From positions 1 to 64,000 of the forward strand of contig CAMCIC010000002.1 of assembly GCA_945874895.1 (NCBI GenBank): a DNA stretch of 64,000 nt, in the 5' to 3' direction. Source of the stretch: Akkermansia muciniphila. GTDB taxonomy: Bacteria; Verrucomicrobiota; Verrucomicrobiia; Verrucomicrobiales; Akkermansiaceae. The position numbers and the translations under genes are program-made. Position 1 is the first letter of the stretch; the number at the start of each line of letters is the position of its first letter. The notes beneath the pieces were generated by a model. It saw only the letters and a list, made by a program, of their open reading frames with translations, did no database searches and had not been told where the DNA came from. This document shows, in pieces, positions 1 through 11,823 of this stretch.

Positions 1-90
1 AGAGGACTATCCTCGGAATATGCAACCGATGTTGGGGATGGATTGGCTTGCAAAGGAATTTGTGAGACAAGGGCACGTAAGATCAATCTT

Positions 91-351
91 ATGGTTGATT
101 CCAACTCAAAGGTAATGGCCGTAGCCAATACACAAGTTAAGAAGAACGCATCTTTTTCAATAGTTGCAGGCGTTTTATTTGGGGCGATGGGGTTTTTTAT
201 GGGGTTACCTTCTGGGCAGCCGATGGCACTCCTTTTTTGCGGACTTGGACTGCTATTTATATTCAGAGGCATTTCCGGATATACTCGATCTTCCAAGTAT
301 CCATCATCCGAAGCAGAAGGCGAACAAGGCGCGGATGGCAACCCCAACTAG
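91..351 (+). CDS. small two-TM hypothetical membrane protein
   Basis: The 86-residue product is not recognised. It has a short polar N-terminus, two hydrophobic segments (about residues 23-39 and 44-62) and a charged, Glu/Gly-rich tail, so it is probably a small inner-membrane protein. The frame is open back to a TTG at 43, and ATG codons occur at 91 and 115. I chose 91 because it is an ATG and keeps a plausible N-terminus, but no good ribosome binding site supports any of them. The stop codon lies inside the left arm of the attC-like hairpin at 319-446, an arrangement typical of integron cassette ORFs. All neighbours in the first 5 kb are likewise small, unrelated and on the same strand. Confidence 0.5.
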   Translation: MVDSNSKVMAVANTQVKKNASFSIVAGVLFGAMGFFMGLPSGQPMALLFCGLGLLFIFRGISGYTRSSKYPSSEAEGEQGADGNPN

Positions 352-446
352 CCCCTCTGTTCTCCATGTTTCCACGTAACTACAACTTCAACCCCGCGTT
401 CAACGTTGGCTCCCGCTAGTGGGGTTGCCATCGCTCGGACGTTCAA
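319..446 (+). repeat. attC-like imperfect inverted repeat (integron cassette recombination site candidate)
   Basis: The left arm (about 322-352) and right arm (about 415-444) pair as GAAC/GTTC at the base, then a short unpaired section, then an 18-bp stem with a single bulged A at 346, closing on a loop of about 62 nt. AAC/GTT ends, an unpaired spacer, extrahelical bases and a large terminal loop are known attC traits. The upstream ORF stops within the left arm. The right end (GTTCAAA) departs from the usual GTTRRRY consensus. No integrase gene is visible in the window. A plain transcription terminator is less likely because the loop is long and no T-run follows the stem directly. Confidence 0.45.
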
Positions 447-508
447 AAAATTTGCATTTGCGACTCCTGAATCGCTACACTTTCGTGTCGTAACTCCTAC
501 CCCAATCT

Positions 509-994
509 ATGAAGAAAACGATGAAGACCATTTGCGTGTTTTCGATAACGTTGGTGCTATTGAATCTAGTAAAAGCAGACCAATATAACCCAACCGCGGC
601 AGCCAACGACCGTCCCGCTTCGCCGCCGTCGGGGATGGTGGTCTCGCTGCCCGACAAGGTATCGTTGAACATGGGAGGGGGGATCCCACTCCAACTCCAT
701 TTCGTCAACGTGGCTGGGACCCATTACACGTTCACGAACTCACAAATGACAATCATCTTGCTCGACGAGGGTGGTCAGCAGGTTAGGGATCCACACAAGG
801 ATCCTTTCTACCGCGAGGCTGCTGTTCGAAATGTGGTGCTAGAGGGCCACGCTCCTGAGTATTCGCCGAAGATTACATTCAACAAGGACTTCAAGGGTCT
901 TCAGGTGGGAAAGCGCTATCAGATCGTGTGCGCCCTTCCAACAGGGGGCGTTCAGGTTCTCGCAGGCTCAGCTTGGTTCATCCTCTCGGAGTAA
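509..994 (+). CDS. secreted hypothetical protein
   Basis: The 161-residue product begins with a clear Sec signal peptide: two lysine pairs or singles, a hydrophobic core (about residues 8-20) and an Ala-type cleavage site near residue 23. The mature part is beta-strand-rich by eye, with Gly/Pro turns and no cysteines before the C-terminal third, which suggests a small periplasmic or extracellular beta-sandwich. I do not recognise the family. The ATG at 521 is an alternative start with a shorter n-region. It starts about 60 bp after the attC-like repeat and is followed by another small + strand gene after 118 bp, fitting a cassette layout. Confidence 0.55.
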   Translation: MKKTMKTICVFSITLVLLNLVKADQYNPTAAANDRPASPPSGMVVSLPDKVSLNMGGGIPLQLHFVNVAGTHYTFTNSQMTIILLDEGGQQVRDPHKDPFYREAAVRNVVLEGHAPEYSPKITFNKDFKGLQVGKRYQIVCALPTGGVQVLAGSAWFILSE

Positions 995-1017
995 CAAAGC
1001 CGCTAACTACAAACAAA

Positions 1018-1106
1018 GAGGCCGAACAATCCATACGAGGCAACCGGCGATCATGCAACGAGTCGAATCGAAGTTTGTCCCGCTGACGCCGCCACTCTAT
1101 CCTTAG
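1018..1106 (+). repeat. weak candidate cassette-site left end in the 995-1112 gap
   Basis: The gap after the secreted-protein gene contains GGCCGAACAA at 1020-1029, matching the left-end motif of the 319-446 hairpin (GGCGAACAA) and of 2081-2089 (GCCGAACAA). A possible right end is the TTAGC at 1102-1106, but arm pairing is poor. It is listed because the motif recurs once per gap, not because it folds well. Confidence 0.2.
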
Positions 1107-1112
1107 CAGAAA

Positions 1113-1586
1113 ATGACTGCACTTCACTTCGCCAAGTTTTGGGATACTCAGCCTAGCAAACTTGAAGAAATGCTGATGTGGATTCCTATCGTGGGATGGT
1201 TCTTTGGTGCCTTACTGTATCGGGTCCGTATACGACCCATTGCTGAGGATATCTACCGCCAGCTTCAGAATCGAGCAGAGCCTTCTTTGTCCGTCTGGGG
1301 CGAAGACTCTCAACGGAGAAAAATGGCTGACTACATTGTTCATCAGCTACCCATTGAATTTGGGTGGCCGAATCATCATTTTATTCCATCTGACCCACTT
1401 TGGATTGCGGCATGGGCCCATCAAGATGGACTGGATGATGTTTCCTTCTTTCGCAACATCGCAAGACATTATAAAGTTTCTATGGATGCGCCGTTTTCGC
1501 GCGATGCAACCCTATCCGATCTGGTTGATTGCGTTTACCAAGAGACAAAGAAATCAACTCATCCAGCCTTCCAGCCAACGCGCTAA
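1113..1586 (+). CDS. hypothetical protein with one membrane segment
   Basis: This 157-residue product is not recognised. It has one hydrophobic stretch (about residues 22-36) preceded by an amphipathic segment, then a soluble region rich in Trp, His and Asp. The C-terminal part, with a Ser-Asp-Leu-Val-Asp turn near residue 140, resembles the small cytosolic domains seen in many cassette-borne hypothetical proteins, but I cannot assign a fold. The start is the first ATG in frame after a 118-bp gap. The stop lies inside a short GCCAAC...GTTTGGC element (1574-1614). Confidence 0.5.
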   Translation: MTALHFAKFWDTQPSKLEEMLMWIPIVGWFFGALLYRVRIRPIAEDIYRQLQNRAEPSLSVWGEDSQRRKMADYIVHQLPIEFGWPNHHFIPSDPLWIAAWAHQDGLDDVSFFRNIARHYKVSMDAPFSRDATLSDLVDCVYQETKKSTHPAFQPTR

Positions 1587-1614
1587 GGTGCGTGGCTAAC
1601 GATTGACGTTTGGC
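1574..1614 (+). repeat. short inverted-end element at the end of a small ORF
   Basis: GCCAAC (1574-1579) and GTTTGGC (1608-1614) are near-complementary ends enclosing 28 bp, including the stop codon of the preceding gene. The AAC/GTT ends resemble attC core boxes, but the inner pairing is only a GCGC/GCGT tetramer, so this may be chance or a decayed site. Confidence 0.2.
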
Positions 1615-1747
1615 AAGAAATAATCGCCTTGCTAGGGAGGCTGAATCGATCATTGTAGGAATCTACAACCTCAACATTGTCTCCCACTTCCTCCCTCGCT
1701 ACTGGTGATGGTAAAATCCAGGTTCGTCAGAAAATCCATATCACGTC

Positions 1748-2131
1748 ATGATCCATACAGACCAAACCAAAGAGCACATCCGGAGTATGCCCGAAGAGAT
1801 TCAAAACTCATTGGCATCCTTGGAGCTCTCGCAATTGAAAAACAGAACCCGACTGGAGCGCATCGCGGAGGCTTCAGCATGGCAGAAACTTTGGTGTTTG
1901 ATCCCAATCATTTTTGCCATACTGATGCTTGGTATGGGCCGCGACTCTTTTCCCATACTCACAGTGTCCTTCTTCTCCGTGATCGCATGGGGGATTGCCG
2001 ATCTGCATCGTCGGATCGATGCCATGCATCGCTTGATGAAAGATGATCGTGATACTCTCGTAGCTAGGATCCACCAAGAAGCCGAACAAGCCGCGCCGGT
2101 ATCCTCTCTTCCGGTCGTTCAGCCTAGATGA
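1748..2131 (+). CDS. small membrane hypothetical protein
   Basis: The 127-residue product has a charged, helical N-terminus (residues 1-45), two closely spaced hydrophobic segments (about 48-62 and 67-84) and a charged helical C-terminus rich in His, Arg and Asp. This is the layout of a hairpin-type inner-membrane protein with both ends cytoplasmic. No known family was recognised. It is on the same strand as its neighbours and has 161 bp upstream. The last codons run through the GCCGAACAAG motif seen at the end of the first gene, so the C-terminal Ala/Pro-rich residues may be recombination-site sequence, not conserved protein. Confidence 0.5.
   Translation: MIHTDQTKEHIRSMPEEIQNSLASLELSQLKNRTRLERIAEASAWQKLWCLIPIIFAILMLGMGRDSFPILTVSFFSVIAWGIADLHRRIDAMHRLMKDDRDTLVARIHQEAEQAAPVSSLPVVQPR
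2081..2123 (+). repeat. compact attC-like element at a gene end
   Basis: GCCGAAC (2081-2087) pairs with GTTCAGC (2117-2123) with one mismatch, and an inner CCGG pairs with CCGG around an 11-nt loop. The left end matches the end of the first gene, and the right end GGTCGTTCA matches GGACGTTCA at 437-445. The element is only 43 bp, short for an attC, and it lies in coding sequence. Confidence 0.25.
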
Positions 2132-2402
2132 TTTCGTCTGAATACACCCTCACCCTCGAGATCGAATTGCGTTCCAGCTTATTCGCTTGCATGAGCTTTG
2201 ACATCCACTAGTAAAATCAAACCCAATACCCCTCGCCCATCGCTAACAACGACTTTCTTTGAATCTCTCTTTCGCTCATACTGGCTTTGGGCGTTATACT
2301 TCGGGCTCACAACACACTGAACTTCGGTGTAAGACGTAGATCTAATGCGTTCAACTAGATCATGGGTGAGTTGTTGTCAGAATATGCAATCAAAGGAGAA
2401 AA

Positions 2403-4223
2403 ATGAAACAGAACTACAAACCACAGAGAGCTTTTTCTCGAACATTCATTGCATTCATGGCGCTCGCCCTCTCGTCTGTTGCCACCGTATCGATGGCGGA
2501 AACACGAGCCGAGCTGAAACCGATCAATGTCAAAGATTTTGGTGCCAAAGGCGATGGCGTGACCGACGACACAACGGCCATCAACGCAGCCATTGTTGTG
2601 GCGCAGAAGCAGGGTGAGGGCGCTATCGTTTCGCTACCTTCAGGCCGCTACAAAACTGGGCTGGGAAAGGAAAAGTCGATTCGCATCTCTGGTGCTGACA
2701 GTCTGACTTTTCAGGGTGAAGGCGAAACGACCATCGTGTCTGGTGATCTGGATGAGCCTGTGTTTCGCATCGTAGACAGCAAGAGCGTAACCGTAAGGAA
2801 AATCTCTATTGATCATGAGCCTCTGGGCTACACACAGGGAACGATTACGAGTGTAGATATACCCAACATGACTTGCGAAGTCTCGATAGACCCAGGCTAT
2901 CAAGCCCCAAACGATCCATCATTCAAAGGCTCGCAAGTTCATCCGTTCGTGTTGCCAGAGAAGAACTACTATCAACTCGATCGTCATTGGCCCAACCCAT
3001 CTGAAATGGTAAAAACCGCTGAGAACACCTGGCGCTGGAAACTGAAAGGTCCGCCCAACATTGAAAATTGGCCAGGCAAGAGGTTTTTCATCTACACAGA
3101 AAGTCGCAGCCACGCTTTCATTCTCACTAATCTGCGCGATACGACTTTGGATGACATCAATTACTGGGGTGGCGGAGCCAATGCAGGCTTCTACGTCAAC
3201 GGACTGGAAGGCACAACGACGTTCAAGCGGTTTGTGATCGGCGTGCCTCCTGGCTCAAATCGTCTCTATTCCTGCGCGGGCGGTGGCCAGATAAGCGGTC
3301 TGCGCGGAAAGCTTCTGCTCGATCAGTGCAACTTTTCCAAAATAGACGACGACGGCATTGATCTATTGTCCAATTACACGCGTATCATCGAGCAGAGAGA
3401 CAAGCGGACGCTGGTCGTGCAGGCCAAAAACAGCGACTACCGTGCGGGCGACCGAGTGGAACTCTGGGATTGGCAGCACAAGAAAATGCGGTCGCACGCC
3501 ATCATTACAAAGGCCACCAGCCACACCGACGGAACGTTCGTGATTGCTTTGGATCGAGATGTCGTGACCGACCGAGTCGGTGTGGGCGTGGGCATGAACT
3601 TCAGTCGCGAATCAATGACCGACGGCATAGACCGACTCATCAACGTGGCGACGGTGGGGCAGGAAACCATCATCCGCGACAGCAAGTTTCAAGTCTTTCG
3701 CGCGAAATGCCTCAACGTAAAAGGCGCCAATTGCACAATTGAGCGCTGCACGTTCAGTAATAGCTTCCAACCCGCGATTTCTGCCGCGCCCGAATGGTAT
3801 TTTGAGGAAGGTTCATCGATTCGAAACTTCACTGTGCGCAACTGCACGTTCACCGATAACAATCACCCCAACATCGTGATCGGCGCGTCTCCCATTTCTG
3901 GAGTTCCTGGCAGCAAACCCATCGTGAGCGATGGACCGGGAAATATCTCGCACGACAGCGAGAACATCCTGATTGAAGGTAACTCGTTTTCTGGCTTCGG
4001 CACCACTCCGAGTGTCTTTGATTGGAACTGGCCCGTCGGCCCTGCAATTACGATCACCTGCGCGGCACACGTGATGATTCGCGGTAATACTTTTGGCCCT
4101 CTTGCTAAGAATGCGCCCAAAGGCACACCCAAAGTCCACGTTGAGAAATCCAATGACGTGAAGTTCATCAACAACCAAGGTCTTTCCGCAGAGGAAACGA
4201 CAGTCCAAAAACCTGAGCAATGA
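2403..4223 (+). CDS. secreted right-handed beta-helix glycosidase, GH110-like
   Basis: The 606-residue product has an N-terminal signal sequence (hydrophobic residues about 14-31, cleavage after an Ala-Glu region) followed by the pectate-lyase-superfamily opening (Val-Lys-Asp-Phe-Gly-Ala-Lys-Gly-Asp-Gly, about residues 41-50) shared by GH28, GH110 and related parallel beta-helices. Later come beta-helix repeats, including an Ala-Ile-Ser-Ala-Ala-Pro-Glu-Trp-Tyr stretch (about 460-468) that resembles GH110 alpha-1,3-galactosidases. The specificity is inferred. An AAGGAG ribosome binding site (2393-2398) sits just upstream of the ATG, unusual for this window. The 271-bp gap upstream shows no gene. 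An open frame continues beyond the stop in the +1 frame, suggesting a possible frameshift near the end. Confidence 0.7.
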   Translation: MKQNYKPQRAFSRTFIAFMALALSSVATVSMAETRAELKPINVKDFGAKGDGVTDDTTAINAAIVVAQKQGEGAIVSLPSGRYKTGLGKEKSIRISGADSLTFQGEGETTIVSGDLDEPVFRIVDSKSVTVRKISIDHEPLGYTQGTITSVDIPNMTCEVSIDPGYQAPNDPSFKGSQVHPFVLPEKNYYQLDRHWPNPSEMVKTAENTWRWKLKGPPNIENWPGKRFFIYTESRSHAFILTNLRDTTLDDINYWGGGANAGFYVNGLEGTTTFKRFVIGVPPGSNRLYSCAGGGQISGLRGKLLLDQCNFSKIDDDGIDLLSNYTRIIEQRDKRTLVVQAKNSDYRAGDRVELWDWQHKKMRSHAIITKATSHTDGTFVIALDRDVVTDRVGVGVGMNFSRESMTDGIDRLINVATVGQETIIRDSKFQVFRAKCLNVKGANCTIERCTFSNSFQPAISAAPEWYFEEGSSIRNFTVRNCTFTDNNHPNIVIGASPISGVPGSKPIVSDGPGNISHDSENILIEGNSFSGFGTTPSVFDWNWPVGPAITITCAAHVMIRGNTFGPLAKNAPKGTPKVHVEKSNDVKFINNQGLSAEETTVQKPEQ

Positions 4224-4314
4224 GGTAAAGGCTGAAAAAGTACAACGCCAATTGAATGAGATGGAAGCGGTCATCCAAGAACACTCGGATACGAACAAAC
4301 CTCCTCAGAAGTAA
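4224..4314 (+). other. open +1-frame tail after the glycosidase stop
   Basis: Directly after the stop at 4221-4223, the +1 frame stays open for about 30 codons to a TAA at 4312-4314. It encodes a highly charged, helix-forming tail (repeats of Glu, Lys, Gln with Leu/Val spacing). The same frame is open back into the end of the glycosidase gene. It could be a C-terminus lost through a frameshift, or a remnant of another gene; it has no start of its own that I trust. Confidence 0.25.
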
Positions 4315-4615
4315 GCATCGTCTATTTCAGACCATGGAACGCAGCTAAGGGAACCAGAGCCAATTACAAGAAGAACAGACACACGCAACGGCGTGCAAAG
4401 TGGTGCTTTGATTTCTTACTTCCTTCCCCACATTGGATAAGCTAGACATATAGCCCACGACTGCAAGAGTCATGGGTCAGATCTCTGAAATGCATCGAAC
4501 CTTGACAAAGCAAACTGCAAAAAAAAGGAAGCAGGCAACGACTCGAATGACATTTTATGTGTCATCGATGCTACCTGCATGCCGCTGCCTAATCCCTAAT
4601 TAACCTTCAAAAAAT
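4315..4615. other. non-coding gap with two imperfect hairpins
   Basis: No gene is seen here. Two hairpins stand out. One is CCCA-C-GACT / AGTC-A-TGGG with a 5-nt loop at 4454-4476. The second is a longer imperfect stem at 4531-4578 (GCAGG / CCTGC at the base and ATGACA / TGTCAT at the top, with bulges between). Neither is followed by a T-run, so neither is a clear intrinsic terminator. An A8 run precedes the second. Confidence 0.35.
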
Positions 4616-5239
4616 ATGACACCAGGTCCTACACTTATCATGAAAGCCCCCGGCTGCAAAAAGCCGGTCAAATTCTCCAGCATTGGTTCCGGAAATACCT
4701 TTGGAGCTACATTCTGGACTGATGGAAAGAGAGAAGCGCCGATGCTTCCCGATGAGCCTTGGCTGAGAAAGAGCCCTTCAGAAGGCGTTTTATTCTGGTC
4801 AGATGAGTGCGAAGAAATCGGGCAGATCGATTTCTTTGCCTATAAAAATGAGAACCCGCAATGGGACGATCTTGAGTTTGCGAAAGAACCAAATCAAAGT
4901 GACTACTTTGCCGCGCTCAGCAATGGCATCGCTGACACGGAAGAGAAATTGAGATACATCAGGATACGACTTTGGTGGCGTGGCAATGACCAAGTCAGAA
5001 ACAAGAAAATCACGCAATTGCCGGATAAGCACATTCAGAATTTGACGGAACTCGCTCCCCTCTTGTCGGAAGAGAATGAGAACCAACGATTGATGAAGGC
5101 GGAAGTTCTGCGAGAGCTATCTCGTTTCGATGAATCCCTAAGATTGCTCGAGAGCAACTTCCCTGCCGACTACCAACATGCCGTTCATCGTATACGAGAA
5201 TTGGCGACGTCTCATGATCCACTTGTTGCTACTCTCTAA
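4616..5239 (+). CDS. zinc-ribbon-type hypothetical protein with lost cysteines
   Basis: The 207-residue product opens with Met-Thr-Pro-Gly-Pro-Thr-Leu and contains Ser-Gly-Asn-Thr-Phe-Gly-Ala, Asp-Gly-Lys and Ala-Pro-Met-Leu-Pro, the hallmarks of a widespread uncharacterised family whose N-terminus normally forms a zinc ribbon with two CxxC-type pairs. Here only Cys14 of the first pair remains, and the expected second pair reads Lys-Ser-Pro-Ser-Glu-Gly, so metal binding is probably lost. The C-terminal half (from about residue 85) is helical and charged, with a TPR-like Arg-Phe-Asp-Glu-Ser-Leu motif near 165-175. The function is unknown. It is the last + strand gene of the accessory segment. 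Confidence 0.6.
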   Translation: MTPGPTLIMKAPGCKKPVKFSSIGSGNTFGATFWTDGKREAPMLPDEPWLRKSPSEGVLFWSDECEEIGQIDFFAYKNENPQWDDLEFAKEPNQSDYFAALSNGIADTEEKLRYIRIRLWWRGNDQVRNKKITQLPDKHIQNLTELAPLLSEENENQRLMKAEVLRELSRFDESLRLLESNFPADYQHAVHRIRELATSHDPLVATL

Positions 5240-5383
5240 AAATCTCTCAAGGAAGCCGATCAAGTAAAACGCGCTGACCGAAAACGGAAGTTGGAGTAGG
5301 CGATTGTGTCCCTTCCCCAAAAACCGTGACACGCCGGTTTGTGGATCGGTCCGCTTCCTCCAGTTCGAGCTCTCGATAATAGC

Positions 5384-5415
5384 AAAAAAATCCCGACCTC
5401 AGGTGAGATCGGGAT
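5384..5415 (-). terminator. intrinsic terminator of the sucC-sucD operon
   Basis: Read on the minus strand, a 12-bp stem with one mismatch (ATCCCGA outer arm, CTC inner arm) and a 4-nt loop is followed by seven T residues. It lies 25 bp after the sucD stop codon. Confidence 0.85.
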
Positions 5416-5440
5416 CTTCGAAAAAGACGATGGGTTCGTA

Positions 5441-6337
5441 TTACTTGCCCCAACGGGTGAGCAGAGTCGAGGCCATGTCGCTGGGTGTTTCCGCCACGGC
5501 GATGCCGCACTCGGCGAGAATGCGCTTCTTAGCGGCGGCGGTATCTTCCTCGCCCCCCACGATGGCTCCCGCGTGACCCATGCGGCGTCCTGGAGGTGCG
5601 GTGGCACCGGCGATGAATCCGGCGATGGGCTTCTTGCAGTTCTCCTTGGCCCAGCGTGCGGCTTCCACTTCAGCCGTGCCACCGATTTCACCGATCATGA
5701 TGATGGCCTCGGTCTCGGGGTCCTCGTTGAACATTTTCAGCACATCGAGGTGGGAAGTGCCATTGATTGGGTCGCCGCCGATGCCGACGCAGGTGCTCTG
5801 ACCGTAGCCGAGTTGGGTCAACTGGAACACGGCTTCGTAGGTCAGAGTGCCGGAGCGCGAGACCACTCCGACGTTACCGCGCTTGTGAATGTAACCCGGG
5901 GCGATGCCGATGCGGCAGCCGCCGTGGGATTTCTCGCCGTAACCGGGAGTCACCAGACCGGGGCAGTTCGGACCAACGAGACGCACGGGCAGACCTTTGA
6001 TGGCTTCTTTCACGCGCATCATGTCCATCACGGGAATTCCTTCCGTGATGCATACGATCAACTCCACGCCGGCATCGGCCGCTTCGAGGATGGCATCGGC
6101 CGCGAATGGAGGCGGCACAAAAATCGCAGATGCGGTGGCACCCGTTTCTTTCACGGCATCGGCCACGCCATTGAAAATGGGAACGGTATTTTCAAACAAC
6201 TGGCCGCCTTTGCCCGGAGTAACGCCGGCGACGACTTTGGTGCCGTAGGCGAGCGACAAGGAAGCATGGCGAGCACCGAAGCTGCCGGTAATGCCCTGAA
6301 TCAGGACTTTCGTATTTTCGTTGATGAGGATGGACAT
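5441..6337 (-). CDS. sucD: succinyl-CoA synthetase alpha subunit
   Basis: SucD (298 residues, the usual family length) forms the CoA-binding and phosphohistidine half of succinyl-CoA ligase, which interconverts succinyl-CoA and succinate with substrate-level NTP formation in the TCA cycle. The N-terminal CoA-binding Rossmann domain starts with the Gly-Ile-Thr-Gly motif (about 15-18). The Gly-Pro-Asn-Cys-Pro-Gly motif is at 122-127, and the phosphorylated His is His255 in Gly-His-Ala-Gly. I start at the ATG at 6337; the open frame continues upstream but overlaps the neighbouring gene without family similarity. It is the last gene of the operon and is followed by a strong terminator. Confidence 0.95.
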
Positions 6338-6372
6338 GGTGGTTAAGTGTGAAGTTTGAAGTGAGCAGTGTG

Positions 6373-6900
6373 TTAGACAATCAATTTCGATAGGACATCG
6401 GCAGGAATGAGTGGTTGCAAATGGGGATGTGACTCGAGCAATCGTGAGATATCGGCGAGGTCTTTCTGGCGCTTGCTGGGACGCCGGGCTGAATCGCTGA
6501 ATGCGGCAATTTTTCCGGCAATCGTGTCTTCCAAACTGGCGACGCGCATGAGAATGCCGTGGACATCGGCCGGGACCGAACGAAGGGGGAATTCCTGATA
6601 GAACGGCGCGGTGGTGATCTGAATGCTGACCTTGGACTGACCTTTCAGGTTCACCGAATGCTCGAATTGCTGACGGGTGAATCCCATTTGTTCGCAAGCG
6701 GCAATCGCTGAGTCAAGGGCATCCGCGACGATAACGATGTCCACATCGGCAGTGGCCATTGGCTCGGCGGCCCAGTGGTTCACGGCAAGCCCGCCGATCA
6801 TGCACCAGGAAATGTCCCGCTCTTCCAACAACTGGATGAGGGTGGAAACATCTCTGCTTCCGCCCATCGTTTGCCAGTCGTAGAATTGCTTTTGCGTCAT
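6373..6900 (-). CDS. nucleotidyltransferase-fold protein between sucC and sucD
   Basis: The 175-residue product resembles small nucleotidyltransferase-fold proteins (MNT/AbiEii-like). It has a Gly-Gly-Leu-Ala-Val helix cap (about 36-40), the metal-binding Asp-Val-Asp pair (about 53-55), and a Lys-Arg-x-Lys-Asp-Leu-Ala-Asp-Ile motif (about 143-152), common near the C-terminus of this group. The fold is clear, but the substrate is not. It lies in the same strand and reading direction as sucC (12 bp upstream) and sucD (35 bp downstream), so it is probably co-transcribed. That interrupts the normally adjacent sucCD pair. No partner HEPN or antitoxin gene is next to it. Confidence 0.75.
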
Positions 6901-6912
6901 TCGCGAAAAAAG

Positions 6913-8094
6913 TTAGCCTACAAGTGCGACAATTTTCTCTGCCGCATCGGCCATGGTGGAAGCGGCGGTGATGTTGATGCCGCTGGCGGCAAGGGTGGCT
7001 TTTCCGGCTTCGACATTATTGCCTTCGAGGCGCACGACGAGCGGAATGGGGAGTCCGGTTTCTTTGGCGGCGGCAACCACACCTTCCGCGATGACGTTGC
7101 AGTCCATGATGCCACCGAAAATGTTGATCATGATGCCTTTGACGTTCGGGTCGCCGAGAATGATCTTGAAGGCTGCGGTCACTTGTTCTTTCGAAGCGCC
7201 ACCGCCCACGTCGAGGAAGTTCGCGGGTTCACCACCGAAATGCTTGATGATGTCCATCGTGGCCATGGCGAGACCAGCGCCATTGACGAGACAGGCGATG
7301 TTGCCATCGAGACCAATGTAGTTCAGCTCATACTCAGAGGCAGCCACTTCGCGGGGGTCCTCCTCCTCCTTATCGCGCATGGCGACGATATCGGGATGGC
7401 GATAGAGAGCGTTGTCGTCGAAGCCGAACTTGGCATCGAGCGCGAGCACGCGGCCATCGGGCGTAGTGACGAGAGGGTTGATTTCCAGCATCGAGCAATC
7501 GCACTGGATGAAAAGCTTGTAGAGATTGCCGAGCAATTTAGCGAACTGCTTGGCAAGATCGCCGCTGAGGCCGAGGGCGGCGGTGATTTTCCGAACTTCA
7601 TAGGCTTGCAGTCCGAGCAATGGGTGGATGAATTGGCGGATGATTTTTTCAGGGGTGTTGTGGGCCACATCCTCGATGTTCATGCCGCCTTCCGTGGATG
7701 CCACGATGACGGGGCGGCAGGTCGCGCGATCCATCAAAATGGCGAGGTAGTATTCGTGAGTGATGTCCACGGCCTCGGCAACCATCACCTTGCGGACCAA
7801 GCGTCCGGCCTCACCGGTTTGCACCGTCACGAGTGTTTCGTTGAGCATTTTGCCAGCGAATTCGGCGGCTTGCTCGGGAGACTCGATCAAATGCACTCCG
7901 CCCTTGAAGCCATTCTTGAACGTGCCTTTGCCACGACCACCCGCGTGAACCTGGGCCTTGATGACCAACGAGGATCCGGCGAACTCGCGGGCTGCGGCCT
8001 CAGCCTCGGCGGGAGTAGAAGCGACTCGCCCTTTGGGGCTGGGAACTTGAAAACGGTCAAAGAGTTCTTTTGCTTGGTATTCGTGGATGTTCAT
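6913..8094 (-). CDS. sucC: ADP-forming succinyl-CoA synthetase beta subunit
   Basis: SucC (393 residues, family length about 388) carries the ATP-grasp nucleotide-binding domain and the succinate-binding domain of succinyl-CoA ligase. The start Met-Asn-Ile-His-Glu-Tyr-Gln is the classic SucC N-terminus, so the ATG at 8094 is preferred to the longer frame from 8118. Visible motifs include the Gly-Gly-Arg-Gly-Lys-Gly loop (about 51-56), Glu-Ile-Asn-Pro-Leu in the ATP-grasp core (about 199-203), and a Gly-rich Asn-Ile-Phe-Gly-Gly-Ile segment (about 314-319). It leads the operon sucC, nucleotidyltransferase gene, sucD. The 98 bp upstream should hold the promoter. Confidence 0.95.
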
Positions 8095-8192: not shown

Positions 8193-9629
8193 TCATGACA
8201 AGGGCAAGCAGAGCGTCGCTCTGGCGCCGCCATTCGGGCGATTCACCAGCGTAATGGCACCACGATGCAAATCGGCCGCTTCGCGCACCAAATTTAGCCC
8301 CAAGCCCGTGCCCTTGCGACCACTGTGATGATGCCGCAGCGAATAAAAACGCTCGAAAATTTTCTCTCGGGCATAGTCTGGAACACCGGGACCTTGGTCA
8401 TCTATGCGAAGAAAAACCTCATCCTTTTCGACCTCGATTGTCACTGTCACCGTGGAATCTGGTGGCGAAAATTCCATTGCGTTTTCCAGTAGATTCGACA
8501 CTGCCGCACGCAGGATAAAGCGATCGCCCTTGACCGTGGGCCGAGACTCTGGTGCCTGCAGCTCCATTTCCACTCTGGCATTTTCTGCGGTAGGTCGAGC
8601 CTCTTCCAGCGCAGCTTCCACGATCGCCACGAAATCAACAATTTCTGTAACATCCAAATGGGAACGGCTTTCCACCCCGGCAAGTTCCAGCAATCGTGAT
8701 ATCAACCGCTCGGCGCGCTGGCTCTCGGCACGGATGTTTTCCAAAAACCGCCTGCGTTGCTCCTCGGGCATTTCCTCATCCAACAATTCCGCTGCACCGC
8801 GGATCGCTGCCAATGGGCTCTTCATCTCATGGGTGAGTGTCTGAGTGAAATGTTCCACATATCGGCGTCCTTCCAAAGCCTCCCGCATTGTCTCAAGGGC
8901 GTGGTAGAGAGCATTCACCTCGCGTCCAGCACCCAAGAGGGGCTTGGGCGGGCGCTGACCTTTTTCCACGGCTTTCGCATATTTCGTTAGAATGCCGATG
9001 GGTTGATACACCCACCAGAACACTGCCGCGATTAATAACAAGATGCCTGTGCCAATGATCACGATCGCTTGAATCATCACTGCACGGCGCTCGGCAATCA
9101 TGGGTAGCGCATCGGCCTGTTTTTTGAACACGGTCACCACACCTCGGGGCGCATGACGTGGCCCGAGAGGCGCCGCGACATACATGATCGATGTCGTTGA
9201 ATCCTCCTCGGTTTCTCGAGAACTGCGAGCACCGTATTGCCCGCTCAATGTCAATCGCACATCGCGCTTGCTCATGTAGTCCTGTCCCTCACGCTTGCCA
9301 TCTTCACTATCAAAAATGACCACGCCAGCCGTATCGGTGACATAGAGGTTCATGCCGACCTGTTGTTTCTGCAGCGTGAAAATCTGTGCCTGAAATTCAT
9401 GATCGCGGGCACGTTGGAACATGTCCCGCAACTGCTTTTTATCCAAAGCGCCTTCGTTCATTTCCTGAGAAACCATTTCGGAAAAGACGTGTGCTGCATC
9501 AACCATCACTTCCTCAGTGGCTTGGAGAATTTGCGGTTCCACATCATCGAGCAAAGACCTCGTCAATCGATAAAATCCCAGCGCCATCACGAATGTGATC
9601 AGCAGTAAGGTGATGCGTGTCAGCCTCAT
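8193..9629 (-). CDS. creC: sensor histidine kinase, CreC-like
   Basis: The 478-residue membrane kinase has an N-terminal TM (about 6-22), a periplasmic CreC-type sensor domain, a second TM (about 185-206), a HAMP-like linker and a HisKA domain with phospho-acceptor His267 in Thr-His-Glu-Met-Lys-Ser-Pro. A HATPase domain carries the N box (Asn-Leu-Leu-Glu-Asn-Ala), Asp-Asp-Gln-Gly-Pro-Gly-Val and a final Gly-Thr-Gly-Leu-Gly-Leu motif. The N-terminal run from the first TM to the Ala-Thr-Glu-Glu stretch matches CreC, which senses growth conditions in enterobacteria; the signal here is unknown. It starts 16 bp after creB, so the two are co-transcribed. No creD gene follows. Confidence 0.85.
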   Translation of the reverse strand: MRLTRITLLLITFVMALGFYRLTRSLLDDVEPQILQATEEVMVDAAHVFSEMVSQEMNEGALDKKQLRDMFQRARDHEFQAQIFTLQKQQVGMNLYVTDTAGVVIFDSEDGKREGQDYMSKRDVRLTLSGQYGARSSRETEEDSTTSIMYVAAPLGPRHAPRGVVTVFKKQADALPMIAERRAVMIQAIVIIGTGILLLIAAVFWWVYQPIGILTKYAKAVEKGQRPPKPLLGAGREVNALYHALETMREALEGRRYVEHFTQTLTHEMKSPLAAIRGAAELLDEEMPEEQRRRFLENIRAESQRAERLISRLLELAGVESRSHLDVTEIVDFVAIVEAALEEARPTAENARVEMELQAPESRPTVKGDRFILRAAVSNLLENAMEFSPPDSTVTVTIEVEKDEVFLRIDDQGPGVPDYAREKIFERFYSLRHHHSGRKGTGLGLNLVREAADLHRGAITLVNRPNGGARATLCLPLS

Positions 9630-9645
9630 GATAAAAAAACATCGA

Positions 9646-10341
9646 TCATTCCATTACCAACACGTAGCCCAGACCGCGACGCGTTTGAATCAAATCCTCT
9701 GCCCCAGCACGAGCCTGTCGCATTTTCGCCCGAACGGACTTGATATGAGCATCGACTGTGCGATCGGTGACAGCACCTGGGTCATACCAAGCTTTTTCCA
9801 ACAACTGGTCGCGCGTGAAGACTCGACCTGCATTTTCCAATAAAACCAGCAAAAGTTTGTATTCATGCGCGGTCAGATCGAGGCAAATCCCATGGCAATG
9901 GATGCGCATCGCCACCGCATCATGGAAAAGAACTTCGACCGACCTCTCTGTCGTCATGCGAACTGGCGAGCTCTCCCCTGCCCCACCCCTGCGCAAAATG
10001 GCCCTCACACGGGCGGTGATTTCACGAGGAGAAAAGGGCTTGGTCACATAATCGTCGCCACCAATCTCAAGACCAAGGATGCGGTCGATTTCGGCATCGC
10101 GCGCCGTCAGAAACAACACGGGCACGGCGGAAGTCTCACGCAGCCTCCGACACAAATCAAAGCCCGTCATGTCTGGCAAACCTACGTCAAGAATCACAAA
10201 ATCGAATTCCTCGTCCACCAGCATGGCCAGTGCGTCGCCACCTGTCATGACATGACTCACCTCAAATCGATCGGTTTGCAGAGCATAGACCAGAGCATCG
10301 GCAATCGCCGGTTCATCTTCCACCACCAAGACACGCGTCAT
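9646..10341 (-). CDS. creB: OmpR-family response regulator, CreB-like
   Basis: The 231-residue regulator has a receiver domain with the acidic pair near residues 9-11, the phospho-acceptor Asp52, a Thr in Leu-Thr-Ala-Arg, and Lys in Thr-Lys-Pro-Phe. It is followed by a winged-helix DNA-binding domain of the OmpR/PhoB type (from about residue 130, ending in Arg-Arg-Gly-Leu-Gly-Tyr). Length and pairing with a CreC-like kinase favour CreB. I start at 10341 because Met-Thr-Arg-Val-Leu-Val-Val-Glu-Asp-Glu is a standard receiver start; the frame extends 21 codons further upstream. The 177-bp divergent region upstream is shared with the E2 gene. Confidence 0.88.
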   Translation of the reverse strand: MTRVLVVEDEPAIADALVYALQTDRFEVSHVMTGGDALAMLVDEEFDFVILDVGLPDMTGFDLCRRLRETSAVPVLFLTARDAEIDRILGLEIGGDDYVTKPFSPREITARVRAILRRGGAGESSPVRMTTERSVEVLFHDAVAMRIHCHGICLDLTAHEYKLLLVLLENAGRVFTRDQLLEKAWYDPGAVTDRTVDAHIKSVRAKMRQARAGAEDLIQTRRGLGYVLVME

Positions 10342-10518
10342 GCCACGATTCTGGCAGATTTTGTCGTTGATTCCAAGCCCGAATGGACCGATGAACGAAA
10401 TCACCGCAACATGTGATGCCTCACCTTTTTCGACTCACGATTATTGCACAGAAAAAACTGGCAAATCGTAAGTCCCTGCCCTAGAGTCCGCCCGTTCCCA
10501 ACAGATTTTTCAACTACC

Positions 10519-11823
10519 ATGGCTGTTAACATTGAAATGCCCAAGCTTTCGGACACGATGACCGAAGGAACCCTTCTCAAATGGCACAAAAACGTCGGTG
10601 ATCGAGTGGAAATCGGCGACATCATTGCCGAGGTTGAGACCGACAAGGCCACGATGGAAATGGAAGCCTTCGACGATGGTGTGTTGACATCCATCTTCGT
10701 TCCTGCGGGTGGCAAAGCCGCCATCGGTACCATTCTCGGTGTGTTGGATGGCAACGACGCAGCACCTGCCGCTGCGCCTACCTCAACAGCTGCACCCGCC
10801 ATTACAGCACCAACCGCCGTAGCCACTCCCGCCGCTAGCCCTACTCCTGTGACCGCGCCATCTGCCTCGGGAGAACGCATCAAATCCTCTCCACTGGCAC
10901 GTAAGGTCGCCGCTTCCCTGCAGGTGAATCTGGCCACGGTCACAGGCACAGGCCCGGGCGGACGCATCATTCGCAAAGACGTGGAAGCCGCTTCGAGTCA
11001 GCCCGCATCCGCACCCGCCGCGAGCCCCTTGGCTGCCGCTGCCTCCGCACTCGCCGCTGCCTCCAAGGCTCGTGCTGCAACTCCCGCCGCACCTGCGCCG
11101 GCGCCCGTGGCCATCGCTCCGGTGGCGAAAGCCGAAGATCAGATCATCGAGCTTTCCTCCCTGCGCAAGATCATCGCCAATCGTCTTCTGACTTCCAAGC
11201 AGACCATTCCTCACTTCTATCTCCATGTCGAGGCTGATGCCGCTCCGCTGATGAGCTTACGCAAGCAAATCAATGATCAGGCCGCCAACACCACGGGCAA
11301 CAAGTATTCGGTCAATGACTTTATCATGAAGGCACTGATCAACGCCACCATGGCCGTTCCTGCGATCAACGCCTCCTTCGGCGGCGACCACATCGTGCGC
11401 TTCGGTTCTGTTGGTCTGTCCGTAGCCATCGCTATCGAAGACGGCCTCGTTACTCCAGTCGTGAAGAACGCTGAAACCAAATCCCTGCTGCAAATCTCGC
11501 GCGAGGTGAAGGACTTCGCCGTTCGTGCCAAGGACCGCAAGTTGCGCCCCGATGAATTCGATGGCGGTACGATCACGATCTCCAACCTCGGCGCCTGGGG
11601 CATCGAGTCCTTCGACGCCATCGTCAATCCTCCCCAAGCCGCGATTCTCTCCGTCGGCGCCGTGATCGAGAAGCCCGTTGTGAAAAACGGACAGATCGTC
11701 GTCGGCCAACGCGTCAACCTCGGACTCTCCTGCGATCATCGAGTGGTCGATGGTGCCGTGGCAGCTGCCTTCCTCAGTGAGATCAAAAAACTCATCGAAA
11801 GCCCGGCGTTGATGCTGGTCTAA
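10519..11823 (+). CDS. pdhC: dihydrolipoamide acetyltransferase (E2), pyruvate dehydrogenase type
   Basis: The 434-residue E2 enzyme transfers the acetyl group from lipoamide to CoA in a 2-oxoacid dehydrogenase complex. Domains are a lipoyl domain (1-78, lipoyl-lysine Lys43 in Thr-Asp-Lys-Ala), an Ala/Pro-rich swinging linker, an E1/E3-binding domain (about 118-155, Ser-Pro-Leu-Ala-Arg-Lys start), a second Ala/Pro linker (about 160-205) and the catalytic domain with the Asp-His-Arg-Val-Val-Asp-Gly active-site motif near the C-terminus. The Met-Pro-Lys-Leu-Ser-Asp-Thr-Met opening favours the pyruvate type. The start at 10519 removes a non-homologous upstream extension. E1 and E3 genes are not adjacent. 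Confidence 0.92.
   Translation: MAVNIEMPKLSDTMTEGTLLKWHKNVGDRVEIGDIIAEVETDKATMEMEAFDDGVLTSIFVPAGGKAAIGTILGVLDGNDAAPAAAPTSTAAPAITAPTAVATPAASPTPVTAPSASGERIKSSPLARKVAASLQVNLATVTGTGPGGRIIRKDVEAASSQPASAPAASPLAAAASALAAASKARAATPAAPAPAPVAIAPVAKAEDQIIELSSLRKIIANRLLTSKQTIPHFYLHVEADAAPLMSLRKQINDQAANTTGNKYSVNDFIMKALINATMAVPAINASFGGDHIVRFGSVGLSVAIAIEDGLVTPVVKNAETKSLLQISREVKDFAVRAKDRKLRPDEFDGGTITISNLGAWGIESFDAIVNPPQAAILSVGAVIEKPVVKNGQIVVGQRVNLGLSCDHRVVDGAVAAAFLSEIKKLIESPALMLV

Follow-up and report, generated by a model that had tools for sequence, protein, structure and literature searches.

The start of contig C2 raises the question of whether four small, unrelated genes on one strand, the first of which ends in a long hairpin, belong to an integron, and, if so, what became of the integrase. 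We analyzed the window, a stretch of 64,000 nucleotides that opens C2 in a 2.92-Mb draft genome of 26 contigs (97% complete). The original prediction was a possible integrase-less cassette cluster in a Verrucomicrobiota chromosome. Homology of the attC site, the finding of four attC sites, the breaks at cassette ends and the failure to find an intact intI all support it. We therefore consider the segment to be, very likely, the 3′ end of an array of integron cassettes now without a working integrase (CALIN). Elements of this kind are known, the bacterial group is poorly described, and no new mechanism is involved. Since base 1 of C2 is the first base of the window, cassettes further upstream are missing, and the contig start falls inside cassette 1. 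C2 and C15 (L024, G000:C15) share identical first 149 bases and diverge within ORF1. This points either to a repeat at which the assembly forks or to a second copy that is truncated. All four ORFs and their attC sites or remnants lie on the same strand (Table 1).

Table 1. Features of the cassette segment at the start of C2 (window coordinates).
Feature	Position	Strand	Remarks
ORF1, gene of cassette 1	1-351	+	5′ end lost; two transmembrane segments by eye
attC1, intact	319-447	+	R″ 319-325; stem 334-352/415-432; loop 353-414; R′ 441-447
Cassette 2	442-1102	+	contains ORF2 (509-994, 161 aa)
attC2, decayed, short class	1021-1108	+	R″ GCCGAAC 1021-1027; R′ now CTTAGCA 1102-1108
ORF3, gene of cassette 3	1113-1586	+	157 aa
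attC3, strongly decayed long-class remnant	1626-1728	+	possible R′ GTTCGTC 1722-1728
ORF4, gene of cassette 4	1748-2131	+	127 aa; stops inside attC4; membrane-protein-like by eye
attC4, decayed, long class	2081-2209	+	nhmmer 31.4 bits, E=5e-8
Right limit of variable region	about 5384-5445	.	DNA similarity to seven congeners resumes; 3′ end of sucD

We took an attC site to be a palindrome that runs from R″ (NNNNAAC) to R′ (GTTNNNN) over a long stem, with extrahelical bases on the R″/L″ side and spacers that stay unpaired. attC1 starts with the R″-like box GGCGAAC and ends with the R′-like box GTTCAAA; between them, GATGGCAACCCC (334-345) and ACTAGC (347-352) pair with 415-432 to form an 18-bp stem with one extrahelical base, flanked by unpaired spacers and closed by a 62-nt loop. 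The AAC/GTT ends, unpaired spacer, stem, bulged base and loop of about 62 nt that had been predicted were all read in the sequence. The first ORF indeed stops inside the hairpin, with its stop codon (349-351) within the stem. Folded as the bottom strand, attC1 has R boxes that pair over a short stretch, spacers that stay unpaired, and extrahelical bases on the R″/L″ side, which is the attC layout established for integrons. It is as the folded bottom strand that attC sites are used (PMC11023631). attC1 thus has the R-box ends, long stem, spacers and extrahelical bases of an attC site.

An attC-like structure scan ranked attC1 first in the 64 kb, with a score of 18.5. Because shuffled sequences matched both this score (2 of 60 dinucleotide-shuffled windows scored at least 18.5) and the stability of the fold (12 of 200 shuffles of a 136-nt piece were as stable), structure alone is weak evidence, and folding energy was discarded as an argument for attC1 since it does not discriminate. 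A scan with strict R-box matching overlooked attC1, owing to the departure of its R′ from its R″, and a relaxed scan recovered it. The home-made covariance model R1 returned 319 and 2081 as its two best matches in the window, both weak. It found attC1 only as a local alignment (319-365, 19.7 bits; E=0.004 over the window and 0.18 over the genome), placing the 3′ arm within the loop and leaving the full-length site unrecovered. R1 was therefore replaced by a sequence profile (nhmmer). No Rfam family was found in the window at the gathering threshold.

By homology to integron sites, attC1 stands far beyond chance. We gathered and aligned 27 attC sites from loci around the IntI genes of the family, and the covariation in this alignment was 0.495, versus 0.10-0.15 for slid pairings. 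The nhmmer profile, built from 12 long-class attC-type sites of relatives with the host genome's own sequences excluded, matched window positions 319-444 with 115.4 bits (E=6e-34), whereas its best score in five shuffled windows was 5.6 bits. BLAST of positions 1-450 gave matches in 15 of 29 genomes, host genome counted, with 23 matches in G008 alone; except for the C15 match at 1-149, they were confined to about 299-450, that is, to the attC and a few flanking bases. DNA relatives of attC1 occur both within the genus and across other families of its order. The relative in the congener G003 (L051 3656-3786; 74% over 132 nt) lies beside IntI, where it is the first attC after intI and attI. attC1 is thus homologous to attC sites that adjoin integron integrases, and, judged by this homology, the hairpin at 319-447 is a genuine attC site, a member of the family found next to intact IntI in the same genus and family.

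An attC or attC remnant was detected behind each of the four ORFs, one intact and three decayed. attC2 is 72.5% identical to an intact attC of C14 over 1017-1106 (BLAST) and scores 12.0 bits over 1021-1101 with the short-class profile (nhmmer); its recombination triplet has changed from GTT to CTT. The attC3 match is weak on its own (8.8 bits by nhmmer over 1646-1709, envelope 1626-1716), with some support from its position between ORF3 and ORF4. attC4 is 70.5% identical over 2079-2206 (blastn) to an attC of C10, a contig with two attC sites. In an integron cassette, the R′ at the start should be complementary to the R″ at the end; for cassette 2, the R′ box of attC1 and the next R″ agree at only 4 of 7 positions. 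The repeated motifs on which the original prediction drew, GGCCGAACAA (1020), GCCGAACAA (2081), GGACGTTCA (437) and GGTCGTTCA (2113), are all present. They had been placed near ORF ends. The motif at 437 ends a real attC, but that at 2113 is no R′ box. We considered GGTCGTTCA as the R′ of a 43-nt attC and rejected it, since the profile gives a decayed 129-nt site that runs to about 2209 and to whose internal loop the motif aligns.

Searches of Pfam, NCBIfam and PADLOC with ORF1-4 revealed no convincing family or function. ORF1-4 encode small cassette proteins; by eye, three of these show features of membrane or secreted proteins, and the N-terminus of ORF2 looks like a signal peptide. ORF1 is a distant relative of a cassette ORF in the C14 array of the same genome (28% identity, E 3e-6), and ORF3 has a 37% identical homolog in G007:C7 with an attC-like site directly 3′ of it (L027 5667-5744, 26.9 bits).

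If these genes are cassettes, each should carry a same-strand attC and break off as a unit at R′ and R″, which is what we observed for ORF2. Its cassette recurs in the congener G008:C200 (matching JAIYDP010000283.1, recorded as a Verrucomicrobiaceae MAG) with 83% identity over window positions 449-1027, and the similarity starts just past R′ and ends at the GAAC of the R″ box. The order in G008:C200 is an attC1-like hairpin, a different gene, a second attC-like site and then the ORF2 cassette; the second site is 81% identical over 122 nt to a site in an intI-linked array of G151. The original prediction called for an alignment of relatives to look for presence/absence breaks at GTT. At the level of DNA comparison, the ORF2 cassette travels between species as one block that is cut at R′ and R″. 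The original prediction would have failed had the small genes been conserved and syntenic in relatives, and the opposite was found. None of them is present in seven congener loci around sucD or the lyase gene, nothing of window positions 1-5380 lies beside sucD in seven congeners, and the sucD-side similarity in those loci ends at about 5384-5445. The gene content at this position has therefore turned over between species. The window also holds a pectate-lyase-like gene (2403-4223, 606 aa) that is 82-85% identical in the congeners G006, G001 and G002; in G006, this gene and sucD lie on different contigs.

Integron integrases were searched for with TIGR02249 (NCBIfam) at its cut-off. By this measure of homology, integrons are common in this Verrucomicrobiota family, with IntI in 82 of 260 genomes and in 4 of 9 congeners (G002, G003, G008 and G009). 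The assembled host genome, in which C2 begins inside cassette 1 and so would not show an adjacent attI or intI, contains no integron integrase above the cut-off. As candidates for the integrase, the tyrosine recombinases of C1, C5, C7 and C15 were rejected, as none passes the cut-off. An intI remnant is present on C23, at the locus L083 (G000:C23:8000-19583). It is 83% identical to the G009 integrase over residues 3-55, is then interrupted, continues at 66% to about residue 97 and has nothing beyond; an attI, one 161-aa cassette and an attC adjoin (9620-11446). This decayed gene indicates that an integrase was formerly present in the genome and has been lost, at least from the C23 locus. C14 carries a well-preserved array (L026, G000:C14:11000-21000; 2850-8005) with an attI that resembles those of G009 and G003 and no adjoining intI; R′/R″ complementarity is 7/7 at six of its seven junctions and 6/7 at the other. 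Thus the genome combines an intI remnant on another contig with an array on C2 that has no adjoining intact intI and attI within the assembly.

Taken together, we propose the following history. The substrate of an integron integrase is attC in the form of its folded bottom strand. Such an enzyme would have inserted the four small genes, which are unrelated and carry one attC each; it was presumably the lineage's own IntI, acting at either an attI or a secondary site, between which the data do not separate. Lack of the integrase may then have let attC2-4 mutate. The cassettes are probably fixed now, apart from possible mobilization via attC1 by an IntI acting in trans. Two routes could have produced the CALIN, intI loss and insertion off target, and both have been proposed before (PMC8618304).

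The second of these routes is a variant of the same explanation, wherein an IntI acting in trans inserted the cassettes at a secondary chromosomal site that never had an attI or intI of its own. Off-target insertion has been proposed as a route to CALINs (PMC8618304), one IntI could have served the other platforms of this genome (C14 and C23), and the lack of window positions 1-5380 beside sucD in seven congeners fits an insertion. However, this evidence fits rearrangement or local loss of intI equally well, and the insertion junction lies off the contig. We regard this variant as a tentative possibility, somewhat short of an even chance.

It is much less probable that the array belongs to an integron that is complete and functional, with an intI and attI located beyond the contig break, upstream, and absent from the draft. 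Because the array begins at a contig end, an intact intI may have escaped assembly; the 149 bases shared with the start of C15 form a fork typical of repeats, and drafts are known to split arrays and inflate CALIN counts (PMC9024848). Against this, no IntI above the cut-off was found in the assembly, the sole intI found is the truncated and interrupted remnant on C23, and three of the four attC sites are decayed, as expected without an active integrase. The reading of the hairpin as an ordinary terminator, a REP-like element or a chance palindrome among normal chromosomal genes, for which its unexceptional fold energy and the shuffled windows that equal its score could speak, is already refuted by the profile match and the relatives beside IntI in the same genus, by the asymmetric extrahelical bases and the lack of an Rfam family, and by the cassette boundaries at R′/R″ and the missing congener synteny.

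An array without a working integrase thus accounts best for the segment, and several known systems resemble it. Like a CALIN in the IntegronFinder definition, it has attC sites, same-strand cassette genes and no integrase alongside within the assembled genome. By default, IntegronFinder 2 asks for at least two attC sites; profile and BLAST give one intact and three decayed sites here. The array differs in that only one of its four sites is intact, a contig end cuts it, and attI sites and a remnant of intI persist in its genome. Origin from a degraded integron is among those proposed for CALINs (PMC9024848, PMC8618304). Sedentary chromosomal integrons of the Vibrio and Xanthomonas type are likewise chromosomal, with similar attC sites within a genome, small cassettes of unknown function and toxin-antitoxin genes, which here lie beside the C23 and C14 arrays; they differ in that no intact integrase was found here and the arrays are short and spread over several contigs. 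The integrons of G002, G003, G008 and G009 share related attC sites with the window, the same attI motif (G003 and G009) and the ORF2 cassette (G008), but these congeners keep an IntI above the cut-off.

Integrons have already been recorded in Verrucomicrobiota (PMC8618304), and published taxon-specific attC models cover 11 taxa, Verrucomicrobiota not among them (PMC8352920). The attC family described here comes from a phylum outside those models. The locus is a clear example in which intI has been lost and attC sites have decayed, and the origin of an integrase-less array can be traced within one genus. A further, rather unlikely extension is that cassette arrays of this lineage long outlast the death of their integrase, among them the C14 array, which, with its attI and without intI, could still receive cassettes from an IntI in trans; if true, integrase and array would be separable parts across the population.

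Some minor observations concern the arrays outside C2. Behind the C23 locus lie a MazF/PemK-type toxin gene with a probable antitoxin gene and then the beginning of an apparent transposase gene. Among the products of the C14 cassettes are a DUF4279 protein and a membrane protein with a weak match to the B-box zinc finger. Just upstream of attI (L050 10150-10225, L026 2858-2925 and L083 10060-10130), the inverted repeat GTTCGTATATCAG...CTGATATACGAAC is conserved together with a T run behind it, an arrangement that resembles a terminator placed between intI and the array. Finally, cassette ORFs read into the attC in ORF1, ORF4, L084 592-930 and L026 2964-3551, and several of them consequently share attC-encoded C-terminal tails (for example AEQAAP and GEQ...).
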